Of a DNA stretch of 64,000 nt, positions 11,180 to 47,835 are shown piece after piece; positions within the stretch are counted from its first letter, which is position 1, and each line of letters opens with the position of its first letter. Source of the DNA: an uncultured Chthonomonas sp. GTDB taxonomy: Bacteria > Armatimonadota > Chthonomonadetes > Chthonomonadales > Chthonomonadaceae. Made by a program: the position numbers and the translations under genes. The notes beneath the pieces are model-generated. The model was not told the origin of the DNA. It saw only the letters and a program-made list of their open reading frames with translations, and searched no databases. The DNA is taken from NCBI GenBank assembly GCA_903859705.1, contig CAIONQ010000024.1:1-64000 (forward strand), in the 5' to 3' direction.

Positions 11180-11731
11180 TTATTTCAGCAAATCAAGCAA
11201 TCGGTTGACATAAGCGTGGGCGGAAGCAGAGAGATCATCGTACTCGTCTTTTGTCTCCTCCGCCCGCTTTCCGTACAGGAAGAACGCGGCCCGCGACGGT
11301 CCAATGCTATCAATCGTTTTGTAGGCTTGCTTTAGGAACTCAATAGCCTCCTTAGCGTCTTTGTCGTCCAGCATCGGTTGGAGTTCGGCGACTACCGAGT
11401 CCACTCCGCCGTCCAGGTTAACCAGAACATAATGCAGATCGAAAGCGTCTTTGGGTTTCTCGCGCTGGTGGATCGCCCGCGCCTTCAGTACGACGAATGA
11501 CGCAGGACCGCAGACCCAGATATACCGCTCTGCCCGTTCCCCGCGAATCGTTTGGCCCGAGATCAATATCCTTCGTCTGTCGCGCTCTACTAGCTGGAGA
11601 CCGTCCGCGATCAGGGCGGCGAAGTCCTTCTCAAGGTTCTGGACTCGTGTTCCAGGCGGTTGTTCAGGGCTGCGCGGAATCAGGAAATCGACCGTCACGA
11701 TGGCGCCTAGCGACGGGTCAGTACGCCTCAT
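11180..11731 (-). pseudogene. AbiEii-like nucleotidyltransferase, C-terminal part (frameshifted)
   Basis: The 183-residue frame matches the second half of AbiEii-type nucleotidyl transferase toxins as I know the family: VTVDFLIPRSPEQ, the DR..ISGQTI..ERAERYIWVCGPASFVVLKA block, KDAFDLHYVLVN and the helical tail. It is one base out of frame with 11718-11960, which encodes the start of the same protein. The stretch of about 25-30 residues that normally links the two halves is largely missing. The toxin gene therefore carries a frame-disrupting internal deletion. It lies immediately downstream of the AbiEi-like gene. Confidence 0.65.
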
Positions 11732-11960
11732 CGGTTAATACGGAAAGCTGTAGCCCCAGGTCCAGATCGGCGGTGCCCGGATGGGCTTCAACGCCTTCTG
11801 GCAGACAATCAGCCGGAACTAACAGAGAAGGCACGAGCCCGCCGATAAGTGTTAATTGCTCCATCCAATCGCCAAGTATAGAAGCGATGTGAAGCATCGC
11901 CTGTCGGACTCGTTCGTACGTCTCCGGCGAGTAATCCAGAATTGTCTTGCGTTCGTCCAT
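11718..11960 (-). pseudogene. AbiEii-like nucleotidyltransferase, N-terminal part
   Basis: These 80 residues contain LTLIGGLVPSLLV and HPGTADLDLGLQLSVL, the GG...D.D nucleotidyltransferase signature of AbiEii-type toxins. The frame stops with TGA directly after LTDEAY, where family members continue into RLRxxGF. The ATG at 11958-11960 overlaps the TAA stop of the AbiEi-like gene by one base (TAATG), showing translational coupling in the original operon. The product alone would keep two of the three expected metal-binding acidic residues and is probably inactive. Confidence 0.65.
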
Positions 11961-13015
11961 TAGGGCTCACCTTTCTGATCGATCGCCGGCCATGATAGGT
12001 GTGTTCGCCTGAGCTCGGCCCGCGCCTCCTCAGCACGCTCTGAGTGCGCCTTCAAATCTACGTAGACCTGCGCGGCGCTCACACAGGGAATGTCCTCACG
12101 ATCTGTCTGCCCGGCGAAAACGCCGGCATCATCCGGAACAACGAGCCAGGTGTTGCTTCCACGCGTCCCCTCGTGGAAGCCAACTGCCGATAGTAAGTCC
12201 TCGCTCGGGCGGGCTGACAGGTAAAGCGTTACCGTGCGAAACGCAGCGAATGGCTCCCACAGCCATGCACCTGCGAGCCCTGTTGCTGCGTGCTTCACAT
12301 CATGACTGGTCAGAGCTTCCGAGAGTTCTCGTAGTAGACCGACACCATCGCGGGCCGCCACGTGGCCGCGAATTATCGTGTGAAGGTTGAAATCGTATGT
12401 TGCGAACCAGGCATTAAGGAGCGCAGTGGGGTCCTTGACGTGGTATCGCAATCCTTTTCCTTCGCTTTCATGTGTAATAAAGCCAGCTTCCACGTACCTG
12501 GGCAACAGGCGGCTGAGATAGCCCTTGGTTAGGCCCGTAGCTCCGGCAAGCTCAGTCTGCAGCCACGATCTTTCTGGGTCGATGAGGAAAGTTCGCGCGG
12601 CGCGCGTACCTCGTGGCGCGAACAGAGACTGCGGTTGCCCGGGTCGCTTGAATTTGTTGGGTTCTCCTTGTATGCGGATTCGCAGTGATGGCGCGTCAAT
12701 CTCCGCGTTTCCTGACAGATCGAGCCAAGACATGTTCGCTACTCTACACAACTCCCGTCCTGATGTTCCCATGTAAGGTACGACAAGTAGCGGAACTGCC
12801 TTTTGCGTGGGGAGTACCGACAATTGGCGTAGAGCAGAGCTTATCTGCTCCCCATTGGCTGCGGCTATGTACTCGACAACGAACAAGTTTCCGCCAGCTC
12901 TTAGCGTCGCATCGTAGGGTTCGTGCTTTGGGTCTGCATGCCAGTCTTCTATTGCGAGCCCGGTGATACGTTGGAACTCGGTTCGCAAGAGGTCAAGTGC
13001 TGTTTTCTCATTCAT
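11960..13015 (-). CDS. AbiEi-like antitoxin/regulator with N-terminal nuclease-like fold
   Basis: From the ATG at 13013-13015 this is a 351-residue protein; an alternative GTG at 13042 lies inside a palindrome. Residues about 10-90 (YDATLRAGGNLFVVEYIAAA, then ISSALRQL) look like a PD-(D/E)xK-type core in which the usual Lys is replaced. LDLSGNAEI follows. A winged helix-turn-helix lies at about residues 145-200 (ERSWLQTELAGATGLTKGYL, LLPRYVEAGFI), then an AbiEi-type C-terminal domain. In known AbiE systems this antitoxin represses its own promoter and counteracts the AbiEii nucleotidyltransferase. The paired toxin here is broken, which would leave an orphan repressor. Confidence 0.7.
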   Translation of the reverse strand: MNEKTALDLLRTEFQRITGLAIEDWHADPKHEPYDATLRAGGNLFVVEYIAAANGEQISSALRQLSVLPTQKAVPLLVVPYMGTSGRELCRVANMSWLDLSGNAEIDAPSLRIRIQGEPNKFKRPGQPQSLFAPRGTRAARTFLIDPERSWLQTELAGATGLTKGYLSRLLPRYVEAGFITHESEGKGLRYHVKDPTALLNAWFATYDFNLHTIIRGHVAARDGVGLLRELSEALTSHDVKHAATGLAGAWLWEPFAAFRTVTLYLSARPSEDLLSAVGFHEGTRGSNTWLVVPDDAGVFAGQTDREDIPCVSAAQVYVDLKAHSERAEEARAELRRTHLSWPAIDQKGEP

Positions 13016-13024
13016 GTTTCTAAT

Positions 13025-13060
13025 ATACCCCATGTTTCGCACGTGCGAAACATGGGGTAT
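13025..13060. promoter_or_regulatory. 36-bp perfect palindrome, likely AbiEi operator
   Basis: Every base of 13025-13042 is complementary to 13043-13060, with centre CAC|GTG and arms containing ATACCCC and GTTTCGC. It lies just upstream of the preferred AbiEi-like start (13015) and covers the alternative GTG start. AbiEi antitoxins are known to bind inverted repeats in their own promoter, so autoregulation is the natural inference. Confidence 0.7.
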
Positions 13061-13399
13061 TCACGAAACTGATTGCAGTATCTGACGTCCCATCTGCGAT
13101 ATTTCGCTTGCCACCATTGAGGTGTTGCGTCACATTGGCGAACAGCACACGCGACAAACGGTCTTAGCCTTCAACGCCGCTAAAACACTCTCAACTCAGG
13201 CGTATTTACATCCGGCGTATACGTTCAGTTATTTGCAATTTAAGAATGAACGAAGCGCTCCCGCATGTATCCTGTTTCGTCGAACGAAGGTTACAGAATG
13301 GAGACCTGGGCGAACTATTGCGCTCAGTTTGAGCTCACTAGGTATGAGTTAGCACTGGGCAAAGGAAGCGCTACCGCGCGTTTGGGCTGATAAAATTGA
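13061..13399. other. Gene-free stretch between AbiEi-like promoter and tRNA terminator
   Basis: About 340 bases with no protein-like frame on either strand. It should contain the AbiEi-like promoter near its left end. I see no repeat or RNA structure in it. Confidence 0.4.
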
Positions 13400-13441
13400 G
13401 CACGCGCAAAACAGGCCCACCCCGGCCTGTTTTGCGCGTGC
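13400..13441 (-). terminator. 18-bp perfect hairpin behind tRNA-Ala
   Basis: Arms 13400-13417 and 13424-13441 pair over all 18 bases (GCACGCGCAAAACAGGCC) around a 6-base loop. On the minus strand a short run (CAATTTTATC) follows, so it can terminate the tRNA transcript. It lies on the island side of the att-like repeat, so it may have arrived with the element. Confidence 0.6.
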
Positions 13442-13465
13442 GGTGGACCTGTATGTTATCTAGCA

Positions 13466-13503
13466 GTCTAATCGCGTGGGGCGCGATGGAGCTGAGGGGA
13501 TTC
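13466..13503. repeat. Proximal att-like direct repeat at tRNA-Ala
   Basis: Bases 13466-13475 and 13483-13503 are identical to 8952-8961 and 8968-8988. The larger block is the 3' end of the tRNA gene plus four flanking bases. The spacing between the two blocks differs by one base from the distal copy. Confidence 0.65.
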
Positions 13504-13559
13504 GAACCCCTGACCTCCTCGATGCGAACGAGGCGCTCTCCCAACTGAGCCACAGCCCC
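13487..13559 (-). tRNA. tRNA-Ala (anticodon CGC)
   Basis: The 73-base gene folds into a full cloverleaf: acceptor GGGGCTG with CAGCTCC (one G-U), D arm GCTCAGTTGGGAGAGC, anticodon stem CCTCG/CGAGG with loop TTCGCAT, and T arm AGGGG-TTCGAAT-CCCCT. The anticodon CGC reads GCG alanine codons. CCA is not encoded. A consensus promoter lies about 27 bases upstream and a strong hairpin downstream. The 3' end is duplicated at 8968-8988, so it served as an integration target. Confidence 0.95.
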
Positions 13560-13585
13560 AGAAATGGTTCGTTAAAACCTCGTGC

Positions 13586-14615: not shown

Positions 14616-15383
14616 CTACGGGCGAGAGCGCCTGCGCCGTAATACCGTTCCAAAGCCAGCAACCGCTGCTGCAGCAAGGGCCATCGCTCCGGGTTCGGGC
14701 GTAATGGTAACGGGTGGAGCTGTGTATTCAAACATGCTAACGCCATCCAGTAGTGCAAATGGAGGTACGCCATCTGGTGTGCCAATGGCGAGGAATGAGA
14801 GCGTTTCCGAAGCGGCCGAGGCTGTGTACACAAACGATTGCTGCCGCCAGCCAGAGAAGCCGCCCGTAGGGTTGCTAACTATAGAAGTGAGTTGAGCATC
14901 ACTGCCGAGTGACACCTGAAACTGCTCGGTATTGTCGCCGGGTAAATCGTACTGTTGAGCGCCCGCCCAGTAGAAACTTACCTGGTAGGTTCGCCCCACA
15001 GTTAGCCCGCTGACAACCTGCTCTATGGCCCCAACCTCAAAGGCACCATCGGCGCCCACAAAGTTGCCCCCGGAAGGGCTGGCCGCCGTTAAGCCGTTGT
15101 TAGACCCATTTGCAGGGCCCCAGAGGATAACAGGGCCGTGGTATTCACTGCTATAGGCACCCGTGGTATCTGCAGTACCGGCGTTAAAGATGAAGTTGTA
15201 TCCGTGGGAAACCCACCCTGTTACATTAACATAGGGGTGTGCAGCGTCAAACTGCCCCGAGCTGTGCCCGGATGTAAGCTCGAAATCGCCGTTGACAATG
15301 AGGTCTGTTTGCGCGTACGCACCGCCCGATGTAAGCATCAGGGCCGCGAACGCTGCCCCGCAAGCAAACGCCTGTTTTATCAA
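14616..15383 (-). CDS. PEP-CTERM protein, tandem paralog 1 (DUF642-like)
   Basis: This 255-residue exported protein starts with TTG at 15381-15383, 10 bases after TAGGAGA. It has a signal peptide ending SGGAYAQ. A beta-sandwich resembling DUF642/choice-of-anchor domains follows: LIVNGDFE, GNFVGADGAFEVGAIEQVV, YQVSFYWAGAQQ, FSGWRQQSFVYTA, and GTPDGVPPFALLDGVSMF. The PEP-CTERM tail is TPEPGAMALAAAAVAGFGTV plus RRRRSRP. It is about 60-70 percent similar by eye to the next two genes. A surface carbohydrate-binding role is plausible but unproven. It has its own promoter and terminator. Confidence 0.85.
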   Translation of the reverse strand: MIKQAFACGAAFAALMLTSGGAYAQTDLIVNGDFELTSGHSSGQFDAAHPYVNVTGWVSHGYNFIFNAGTADTTGAYSSEYHGPVILWGPANGSNNGLTAASPSGGNFVGADGAFEVGAIEQVVSGLTVGRTYQVSFYWAGAQQYDLPGDNTEQFQVSLGSDAQLTSIVSNPTGGFSGWRQQSFVYTASAASETLSFLAIGTPDGVPPFALLDGVSMFEYTAPPVTITPEPGAMALAAAAVAGFGTVLRRRRSRP

Positions 15384-15502
15384 AGTGTTGTATCTCCTAT
15401 GAGCGTCATGACTATAGCTGTGTTACCAGAGTTCGTTGGATTACTCAGCGTGATTGGAGGAAAGTGCCGCATTCAACCGAAGTCCGTGGTGTGCAGCGAC
15501 CA

Positions 15503-15531
15503 ATCATAAACCACAAAAATTGAATTGTCAA
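15503..15531 (-). promoter_or_regulatory. Promoter of PEP-CTERM paralog 1
   Basis: TTGACA and TATGAT on the minus strand are separated by 17 bases. A transcript from here would carry a leader of about 110 bases before the TTG start at 15383. Confidence 0.65.
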
Positions 15532-15827
15532 CTGCACATTTATAGAAGTCGTGCTTTTATGTTCTATGATAGTACTATTGCACTACATGCTTCCAAAAGA
15601 GTAGTTATAAACAATTAATAATCGTTGTTGCAGATGGATTTGCAACAATTTGCGTTTGCGTTGTATTCCAGTTTCCGGGGTGTTCATCAGGTATTACGGG
15701 AGTACAAGTACGATTTGCGGACTCGCGAAGTAGGCGAGTGCGCAGGCTGGCTCAGTAGAGGGTGGACATGGAAGTATTGTTCGGCAACGTGCTCGGCAGA
15801 GAGTTGCCATACCCTGCTCGATAACAT
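15532..15827. other. Intergenic region between PEP-CTERM paralogs 1 and 2
   Basis: About 300 bases with no credible coding frame. It is A+T-rich near 15540-15640. I see no repeat or known RNA motif. Confidence 0.4.
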
Positions 15828-15865
15828 AAAAATAGCCCGATGAGCGGAAACCGCAGACCGGGCTA
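15828..15865 (-). terminator. Terminator of PEP-CTERM paralog 2
   Basis: TAGCCCG and CGGGCTA pair, with an inner GCGG/CCGC stem, and TTTTTAT follows on the minus strand. It lies about 30 bases past the stop of the gene at 15894. Confidence 0.75.
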
Positions 15866-15893
15866 AATGTAATGTATGTAGTGCCGAGATTTC

Positions 15894-16655
15894 TTATTTT
15901 CTTGCGGCCCTGCGCCTTCGTACTACAGCGCCAGCAAACCCAACAAACCCTGCCGCTGCAAGCGCCATGGCGCCTGGCTCCGGGGTTACTTCCGAGAGAT
16001 CGTACATAGAAACGCCATCTATCAGCGCAAAAGGTGGAACACCGGAGGGCGTACCAATTGCCAGGAGGGAAAGCGTTTCTGTACCACCGGTTGCAATGTA
16101 ATCGAAGCTTTGCTCCGTCCATCCAGAGAATGCTTCGCTGGGGTTAGAGATTGTTGATGTTGTGTGAAACTGTGATCCCAGCGTTGCTTTGATCTTTTCA
16201 GTGGTATCGCCGGTGTAACCGTGCTGTTGCGCTGCAGCCCAGTAGAAGTTAAGCTGATACGTATGGCCAGCGTGCAGACCAGTAATTACTTGCGATATGG
16301 CACCCACCTGGTATGCGCCATCCATTCCCACAAAGTTGCCGCCGGTTGGGCTTGTTGCAGGCAACCCGTTGGCAGAGCCACTGTTAGGCCCCCAGAGGAT
16401 AAGCTGCTTGGTATTCTCAGAGCTGTATACGCCGGTGGTATCGGCGGAGCCAGGTGTGAACAAGAAGTTGTAGCCAGCAGAAGTCCACCCGGTTACGTTC
16501 ACATAAGGATAGTGGCTATCCCACTGACCAGAGGATTGAACAGTGGTCTGCTCAAAATCACCGTTGACGATCAGGTTAGTCTGAGCAAACACTGAGTTGC
16601 ACGAAAGAAGCATTAGCACAGGCATCGTGGCGCGTACAAGTGGCTGGAAATTCAA
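15894..16655 (-). CDS. PEP-CTERM protein, tandem paralog 2 (DUF642-like)
   Basis: The TTG at 16653-16655, 10 bases after GGGAG, gives a 253-residue protein that matches its neighbours in length. The longer open frame to 16763 adds sequence without a signal peptide character. The signal peptide ends in NSVFAQ. The domain repeats the landmarks of paralog 1: LIVNGDFEQT, GNFVGMDGAYQVGAISQVI, YQLNFYWAAAQQ, GTPSGVPPFALIDGVSMYD. The tail is TPEPGAMALAAAGFVGFAGA plus RRRRAARK. The three copies were probably made by tandem duplication. Confidence 0.85.
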   Translation of the reverse strand: MNFQPLVRATMPVLMLLSCNSVFAQTNLIVNGDFEQTTVQSSGQWDSHYPYVNVTGWTSAGYNFLFTPGSADTTGVYSSENTKQLILWGPNSGSANGLPATSPTGGNFVGMDGAYQVGAISQVITGLHAGHTYQLNFYWAAAQQHGYTGDTTEKIKATLGSQFHTTSTISNPSEAFSGWTEQSFDYIATGGTETLSLLAIGTPSGVPPFALIDGVSMYDLSEVTPEPGAMALAAAGFVGFAGAVVRRRRAARK

Positions 16656-16849
16656 GTAGTGTTTTCTCCCGCGGTAATCACCGCAAATCAGGCGGGGCAG
16701 TAAATAGTGGCATAGCGATCGCTGCAGGCGATGTCCGTAGCTTGTAACGAAAGCCAACCACACCTACTACGAGCGAGCGTACTAAATTATTGCCGGATTA
16801 TAACGTTTTTCTGGTGAGATGCATGGGAGTTGCACGATTGATGATCCTA

Positions 16850-16899
16850 TAAATACAGCAATCCCGGTGCATGGCAGTCTAGCTACTGTGCACCGGGAT
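16850..16899 (-). terminator. Terminator of PEP-CTERM paralog 3
   Basis: Perfect 11-bp arms ATCCCGGTGCA (16861-16871) and TGCACCGGGAT (16889-16899) are followed on the minus strand by TGCTGTATTTATAG. Confidence 0.75.
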
Positions 16900-16926
16900 C
16901 GTGTTTACAGGAATGAGAACCCTGAT

Positions 16927-17697
16927 TTACTTTGCTGCGAGGCGGCGGCGGCGAAGAGCCGCACCTGCAAAGCCTGCAAGGCCCGCGGCAGCCAGCGCCA
17001 TTGCGCCAGGCTCTGGAGTATCCGTGGGCGGAGGGGTGGATATATCGTAGAGAGTTACGCCATCCAACAGAGAGAACGGCGGCACGCCATTGGGAGTTCC
17101 GAGCGCGAGGAAAGCCAGCGTCTCCGAGGTAGAAGTGGCAGTGTACGTAAACGATTCTTGTTGCCAGCCAGAGAAGCCGTGGCTCGGATTGTTATACACC
17201 GACGTTAACTGTGTATCACCACCGAGGGACGCCTGCCACTGCTCTGTATTCGGCCCATCGTAACCTTGCTGCTGAGCTCCGGCCCAGTAGAATCCTAGTT
17301 GATAGGTGTGGCCAACGGTAAGGCCATTGATTGTCTGAGTAATAGACCCCTGCTGGAATGCGCCATCGGCGGCTACAAAGTTGCCACCTGTTGGGCTATT
17401 TGTTAGTCCGTTATTCACGCCATTGCCTGGCCCCCACAGCGTTAGCTCATTGTTATATTCTGAGCTGTGGGCACCTGTGGTATCCGCAGTATTAGGAGCG
17501 AAGATGAAATTGTAACCGTTGGAAATCCACCCGGTAACATTGACATATGGATGGTTAGAATCCCACTCGCCGGAGCTATGCCCGGTGGTGACTTCGAAGT
17601 CTCCGTTTTGAATCAGGTTGACCTGTGCGAATGAGGAATTTGATGCCAGCATCAATGCCCCAAGCGCCGCCCCGCAAGCGAATGCTTTTCTTAACAA
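16927..17697 (-). CDS. PEP-CTERM protein, tandem paralog 3 (DUF642-like)
   Basis: The TTG at 17695-17697 lies 9 bases after AGGAGG and gives 256 residues starting (M)LRKAFACGAALGALML, a signal peptide very like that of paralog 1. The domain has LIQNGDFEVT, GNFVAADGAFQQGSITQTI, YQLGFYWAGAQQQ, GTPNGVPPFSLLDGVTLYD. The sorting tail is TPEPGAMALAAAGLAGFAGA plus RRRRLAAK. All three paralogs use TTG starts at the same place relative to the signal peptide, so the weak start is conserved and may set expression level. Confidence 0.85.
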   Translation of the reverse strand: MLRKAFACGAALGALMLASNSSFAQVNLIQNGDFEVTTGHSSGEWDSNHPYVNVTGWISNGYNFIFAPNTADTTGAHSSEYNNELTLWGPGNGVNNGLTNSPTGGNFVAADGAFQQGSITQTINGLTVGHTYQLGFYWAGAQQQGYDGPNTEQWQASLGGDTQLTSVYNNPSHGFSGWQQESFTYTATSTSETLAFLALGTPNGVPPFSLLDGVTLYDISTPPPTDTPEPGAMALAAAGLAGFAGAALRRRRLAAK

Positions 17698-17824
17698 TAT
17701 TGTGTGCCTCCTGTGAAACAGGGACACATAGCGAATTGTGCCTCCGCAGAGATATCCGCAATGTGCCTCATTCTGCATAACCTAGCCAACACCCCTGAAG
17801 CGAATCAAAGGCGATAGGCCAATT

Positions 17825-47754: not shown

Positions 47755-47778
47755 TTCTGTTTCTTCAGTAATAGAATT

Positions 47779-47817
47779 AAGAGGCCGTGAAGCTTAGCTT
47801 CACGGCCTCTTCTTTTT
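47779..47817 (+). terminator. Terminator of rpmB
   Basis: Arms AAGAGGCCGTGAAGCT and AGCTTCACGGCCTCTT are exact complements, followed by CTTTTTC. It also lies just past the convergent thioredoxin-like gene. Confidence 0.9.
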
Positions 47818-47835
47818 CATACTTGCTTGTAGACA

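Follow-up and report, generated by a model that had tools for sequence, protein, structure and literature searches.

What is the role of a perfect 36-bp palindrome that sits where an AbiEi-like gene begins? The initial annotation of the window (the whole 64,000-nt stretch of uncultured Chthonomonas DNA analysed here) proposed that it is an operator, and that RNA made from it would also hide the translation start. The palindrome itself is as described: positions 13025-13060 are their own reverse complement, with 18+18 bases and zero spacer, and the next pair outwards (13024/13061) is mismatched. The accompanying claim that such a palindrome is rarely random also holds, since the longest zero-gap arm in 30 Markov-1 windows was 11, as compared with 18 here, and analytically only ~1e-6 arms of 18 bp are expected in 64 kb. 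Even when as many as 3 mismatches are allowed, the 24-bp core of the palindrome has a single site in the genome (6.24 Mb).

A larger element encloses the palindrome, a point that goes beyond the initial annotation. In a repeat search, it grows to imperfect arms of 27 nt (13016-13042 and 13043-13069, 85% complementary) around a dyad at 13042/13043. The whole element, 13016-13069, contains four half-sites, as delimited by the repeat search, a scoring model (below) and the half-site words. Two of these lie in direct orientation on the gene strand (minus) at 18-bp phasing, h1 (TTTCG, 13064-13068) and h2 (TTTCG, 13046-13050). They are followed by two inverted half-sites on the plus strand, again 18 bp apart, h3 (TTTCG, 13035-13039) and h4 (TTTCT, 13017-13021), the latter directly before the start codon. 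The outer perfect pairs ATACCCC/GGGGTAT of the window element are unmirrored in the homologous loci L003, L004 and L005.

The open frame for the AbiEi-like protein spans 11960-13042 on the minus strand. The palindrome does lie at the start of this gene, as had been noted: two in-frame candidate starts, GTG 13042 and ATG 13033, fall within it, and a conserved ATG at 13015 lies nine bases outside. The two closest homologs, L003 and L004 (56 and 58% identity), have their common start at ATG 13015. Because they fix the start there, we rejected GTG 13042 and ATG 13033, which are probably unused. From the conserved ATG, the gene (11960-13015, minus strand) encodes 351 aa.

Homologs and predicted structure indicate a protein of three parts (mean pLDDT 92.6, pTM 0.66). 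In a VIA fold search with the model, residues 2-101 align with the NucS/EndoMS-type endonuclease 2vld (Z 9.6), and residues 127-207 align with winged helices of the MarR type (Z ~9-10), helix 164-176 matching their recognition helix in position. Residues 222-343 align with nucleotidyltransferases, the best among the matches listed being 8rr5, the MenT1 toxin (Z 11.0 over 118 residues at rmsd 3.2). Foldseek gave one match at E <=0.001 among the matches listed, again 2vld. Neither fold search has a solved AbiEi or COG4861 antitoxin among its best 50 matches listed, and phmmer found no meaningful match to the window protein in PDB sequences. We read these predicted similarities as likeness of fold, which is not the same as likeness of function. 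In the N-terminal nuclease-like part (protein residues 2-101, noted under 11963-13015), the family consensus is FxxExK, which we take to be PD-(D/E)XK; the window protein carries Ile in place of that Lys, at residue 50. The AbiEi_2 profile matches the window protein below the cut-off (E 0.004; 17.9 bits, cut-off 21), and reaches E <=0.001 in 17 of 36 aligned homologs. PF09952 and COG4861 are given together in an excerpt of PMC7251935. By sequence, the protein thus looks like a diverged AbiEi_2/COG4861-like antitoxin, nearer to this branch than to COG5340.

A promoter search of 12900-13500 found a sole promoter-like site, on the minus strand, and this match over the element is weak (1 found versus 0.5 expected in shuffles). 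Its -35-like hexamer, TTCGCA (13044-13049), is overlapped by h2, and its -10-like hexamer, TATATT (13022-13027), lies between h3 and h4. The A of ATG 13015, seven bases after the -10-like hexamer, is the predicted +1, so that the mRNA is probably leaderless and would start after the palindrome. This reading is strengthened by L003, L004 and L005, which carry TATAAT, TATACT and TATAGT in the -10 place, equally far from their start codons.

The predicted +1 also bears on the proposal that the palindrome acts in mRNA as a hairpin, hiding the translation start or attenuating expression. An 18-bp perfect inverted repeat would indeed be strong if transcribed, but the predicted transcript begins past the palindrome, and neither a T-run after it nor a terminator call was found there in the search of 12900-13500. 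Furthermore, the four-part phasing, direct as well as inverted, with 18 bp between direct repeats, is no property of a hairpin. That part of the initial annotation is therefore unsupported; we reject an RNA hairpin over the start and consider a role of this kind quite improbable.

If the palindrome acts as DNA, its layout may recur at related genes, and the initial annotation had pointed to close homologs as the place where absence of a similar inverted repeat would count against an operator. Scanning genome_contigs and viral_contigs with the single protein gave no match; scanning with a three-row alignment gave 45 loci in genome_contigs and no locus in viral_contigs. The palindrome core is kept at the same place before the two closest homologs, one copy being perfect and the second carrying an indel. 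A strict palindrome search of homolog upstream regions missed the four-part layout, which was instead scored with a model of 6-mer half-sites (maximum 24 points; pass at >=20). The window scores 23 of 24, matched by none of 100 shuffles; counting the window, this is true of 24 out of 46 regions. With periods 12 to 25 scanned, 19 of 40 non-redundant regions in the discovery set reached at least 20 at period 18, while each other period gave 0 or 1 of 40 and random stretches gave 1 of 200 at period 18. Among the 33 regions scoring >=17, the start codon lies 27 to 28.5 bp downstream of the dyad in 19, and T, A and T at +15 to +17 from the dyad, in 24, 24 and 20 regions respectively, mark the -10 position.

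The same period was found in other Armatimonadota homologs (12/23 at period 18, 0 or 1/23 at other periods); the count is 10/20 once three discovery-set duplicates are left out. The same-phylum loci L066, L069 and L083 share their upstream sequences with L020, L056 and L054. Plasmid loci, most of them annotated AbiEi antitoxins, passed at period 18 in 7 of 10 cases; over a wider gap range, 3 of 10 reached >=20 at other periods, two at 17 and one at 19. Predictions were written beforehand for 91 later regions, comprising the loci of four phylum-wide draws and two more. Period 18 passed in 48 of these, period 17 in 16 and any other in 0 to 3, leaving 43 below threshold at period 18; altogether 59 reach the threshold at either 17 or 18. 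When regions are grouped by how close the protein is, period-18 passes were 16/35 (>=300 bits), 31/45 (100-300 bits) and 1/11 (<100 bits). Six of the period-17 cases fall in the <100-bit class, and period 17 is apparently a variant of the layout. Six loci (L128, L129, L131, L132, L138 and L204) form a distant subfamily with 17-bp phasing and words such as TGTTCA. A fifth draw of 299 genomes yielded no new homolog. Thus, a similar inverted repeat is present before the closest homologs, and the layout is widely recurrent.

Across related genes in several bacterial phyla, the geometry is constant and the half-site words vary by lineage. In L068, L071 and L075 it is h1 and h2, not h3 and h4, that enclose a -10-like sequence, and the layout is therefore tied to the protein family rather than to one promoter position. 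One Dehalococcoidia contig carries two AbiEi-like genes ~7 kb apart (L033 and L043), each with its own half-site words, possibly an insulation of paralogs. Before a Variovorax plasmid gene (L097), two such elements stand in tandem as judged by eye, the second around the start codon.

Changing words under a constant geometry raise the question of which residues might read them. In a scan of 351 residues over 24 loci, residue 163, which adjoins recognition helix 164-176 on its N-terminal side, ranked first for association with half-site base 3. Where base 3 is T, the residue is G, N, S or T; where it is G, the residue is A, D, H or N; and 25 of 27 classified loci fit this rule. For base 4, the top residue in the same scan was 81, outside the helix. 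In later loci, the prediction written beforehand was borne out, with D, N or H at residue 163 in 6/8 TTG sites versus 1/35 others (Fisher p 3e-5, a value that ignores kinship). Ranked blindly, residue 163 was 79th of 304 in the later loci and 26th of 324 in all loci together; it is not singled out in the blind scan because subfamily differences dominate. On the tree, ~5 base and ~4 residue-163 changes suffice, with one independent pair on supported branches, and too few independent pairs mean that the tree offers no test of the link. Residue 163 tracks base 3 in these sequences, confounded by kinship, and we regard it as a good lead rather than proof.

We conclude that the palindrome is very probably the core of an autoregulatory operator of the AbiEi-like antitoxin gene. 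That the element is present, is phased, recurs in front of homologs and lies over promoter-like sequence is read directly from the DNA, and the proposal of an operator at this gene thereby gains sequence support, with the core kept in the closest homologs and the layout recurrent. From this we infer antitoxin binding, with one protomer per half-site, and repression of a leaderless start. The winged-helix part of the antitoxin would read a short half-site, here TTTCG. The four half-sites, centred at about -24, -6, +6 and +24 from the dyad, would occupy the promoter all the way between a point upstream of the -35 and the start codon. An inner pair bound by protein would mask the -35 and the spacer; at the outer pair, bound protein would lie on either side of the promoter and over +1. 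Accumulated antitoxin would then exclude RNA polymerase, silencing both the leaderless transcript of its own gene and the toxin frame downstream.

The promoter could also be under the control of an outside factor, making the element the operator of a regulator other than the encoded antitoxin. We consider this about as improbable as the hairpin: the genome holds a single site, the layout travels with the gene family across phyla while the words change, and residue 163 of the antitoxin itself is associated with base 3 of the word. Still less credible is a mobile or recombination-related repeat. tRNA genes are frequent insertion places, and a tRNA-Ala gene (13485-13560, minus strand, by tRNA search) is nearby. 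Such a repeat was nevertheless rejected, given one genomic copy and a constant position ahead of the start codon among homologs, where the element is conserved in other surroundings. Other repeats and genes of the window were noted in passing. A second strong inverted repeat follows the tRNA-Ala gene at 13400-13441 (18-bp arms, loop 6) and was called a terminator. A near-perfect one lies at 47767-47823 (28-nt arms, 82%; 16-bp perfect arms with a 1-nt spacer). At 14616-17778, three paralogs in a row share a tail of the type TPEPGAMALAAA...RRRR, which resembles a PEP-CTERM sorting signal. A syntenic flank, sought in five related genomes, gave one 43% identical hydroxylase, in a genome of the same genus.

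The proposed autoregulatory operator would also act on a toxin gene. The AbiE (type IV toxin-antitoxin) order is kept, with the antitoxin gene followed by an AbiEii/DUF1814 nucleotidyltransferase gene. As judged from its frames and from homologs, this AbiEii-like gene (11180-11960, minus strand) is broken, lying in two frames, 11960-11718 and 11731-11180, as compared with a single frame in L003 and L004. Relative to these, the gene lacks ~27 codons just past the first catalytic motif and there is a frameshift; the sequence suggests that a deletion of ~86 bp with frameshift split the frame, though an assembly error may be the source. The AbiEii profile matches the second frame with E 0.0005, short of the cut-off; the L004 toxin is above the cut-off and the L003 toxin just below. 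The antitoxin frame and the operator element are intact beside this broken frame.

AbiE-type systems serve in phage defence and in the maintenance of mobile DNA. We think it somewhat probable that a single operator grammar is common to antitoxins of the COG4861/AbiEi_2 type: a dyad with four half-sites phased at 18 bp (or 17 bp, in a side branch), with letters rewired by lineage via few recognition-helix residues, 163 first. They would form a naturally occurring collection of autorepressors insulated from one another, in many cases on leaderless promoters, and could be predicted from sequence alone. A readable grammar for the COG4861 branch would allow targets and cross-talk to be predicted from sequence. 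It would also show a repressor family changing its word under fixed geometry, and the window presents an antitoxin and operator intact next to a broken toxin frame. The element is ordinary in kind, as an antitoxin operator, and less ordinary in form, with an 18-bp-phased four-half-site layout in several phyla with changing words.

This form can be compared with known systems. The antitoxin is like MarR-type repressors in its winged-helix fold (VIA Z ~9-10) and in an inner palindrome with half-site centres ~12 bp apart, the MarR operator geometry. It differs from them in the outer half-sites 18 bp away and in the fusion to nuclease-like and nucleotidyltransferase-like parts. In the open-access papers searched, we found no operator for the AbiEi_2/COG4861 branch and no such layout; the operator data found there concern COG5340 antitoxins. 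Excerpts of PMC3985639 and PMC7319586 describe COG5340-branch AbiEi proteins that repress their own promoters via inverted repeats. Autoregulation is not universal among AbiEi proteins, as Rv1044 showed no binding to the promoter of its own gene (excerpt of PMC7319586).

The window system is in agreement with abiE of Streptococcus agalactiae (COG5340) in several respects described in the same excerpts (PMC3985639, PMC7319586): a winged helix joined to a C-terminal domain that resembles nucleotidyltransferases, repeats that overlap the -35 and flank +1, and an antitoxin gene before the toxin gene. The window antitoxin has an extra N-terminal nuclease-like part. The S. agalactiae operator has two 23-bp inverted repeats 3 bp apart, each bound by one monomer, whereas the window has a contiguous inner palindrome and four short half-sites with 18-bp direct phasing; there, +1 lies 26 bp before an ATG with a ribosome site, and here a leaderless start is predicted (excerpts of PMC3985639 and PMC7319586). 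A likeness in number of repeats is seen in the Rv2827c promoter of M. tuberculosis (COG5340), where four antitoxin-bound repeats surround the promoter; these are 23 bp each and span ~130 bp in two pairs, in contrast to four half-sites within 54 bp in the window (excerpt of PMC7319586).
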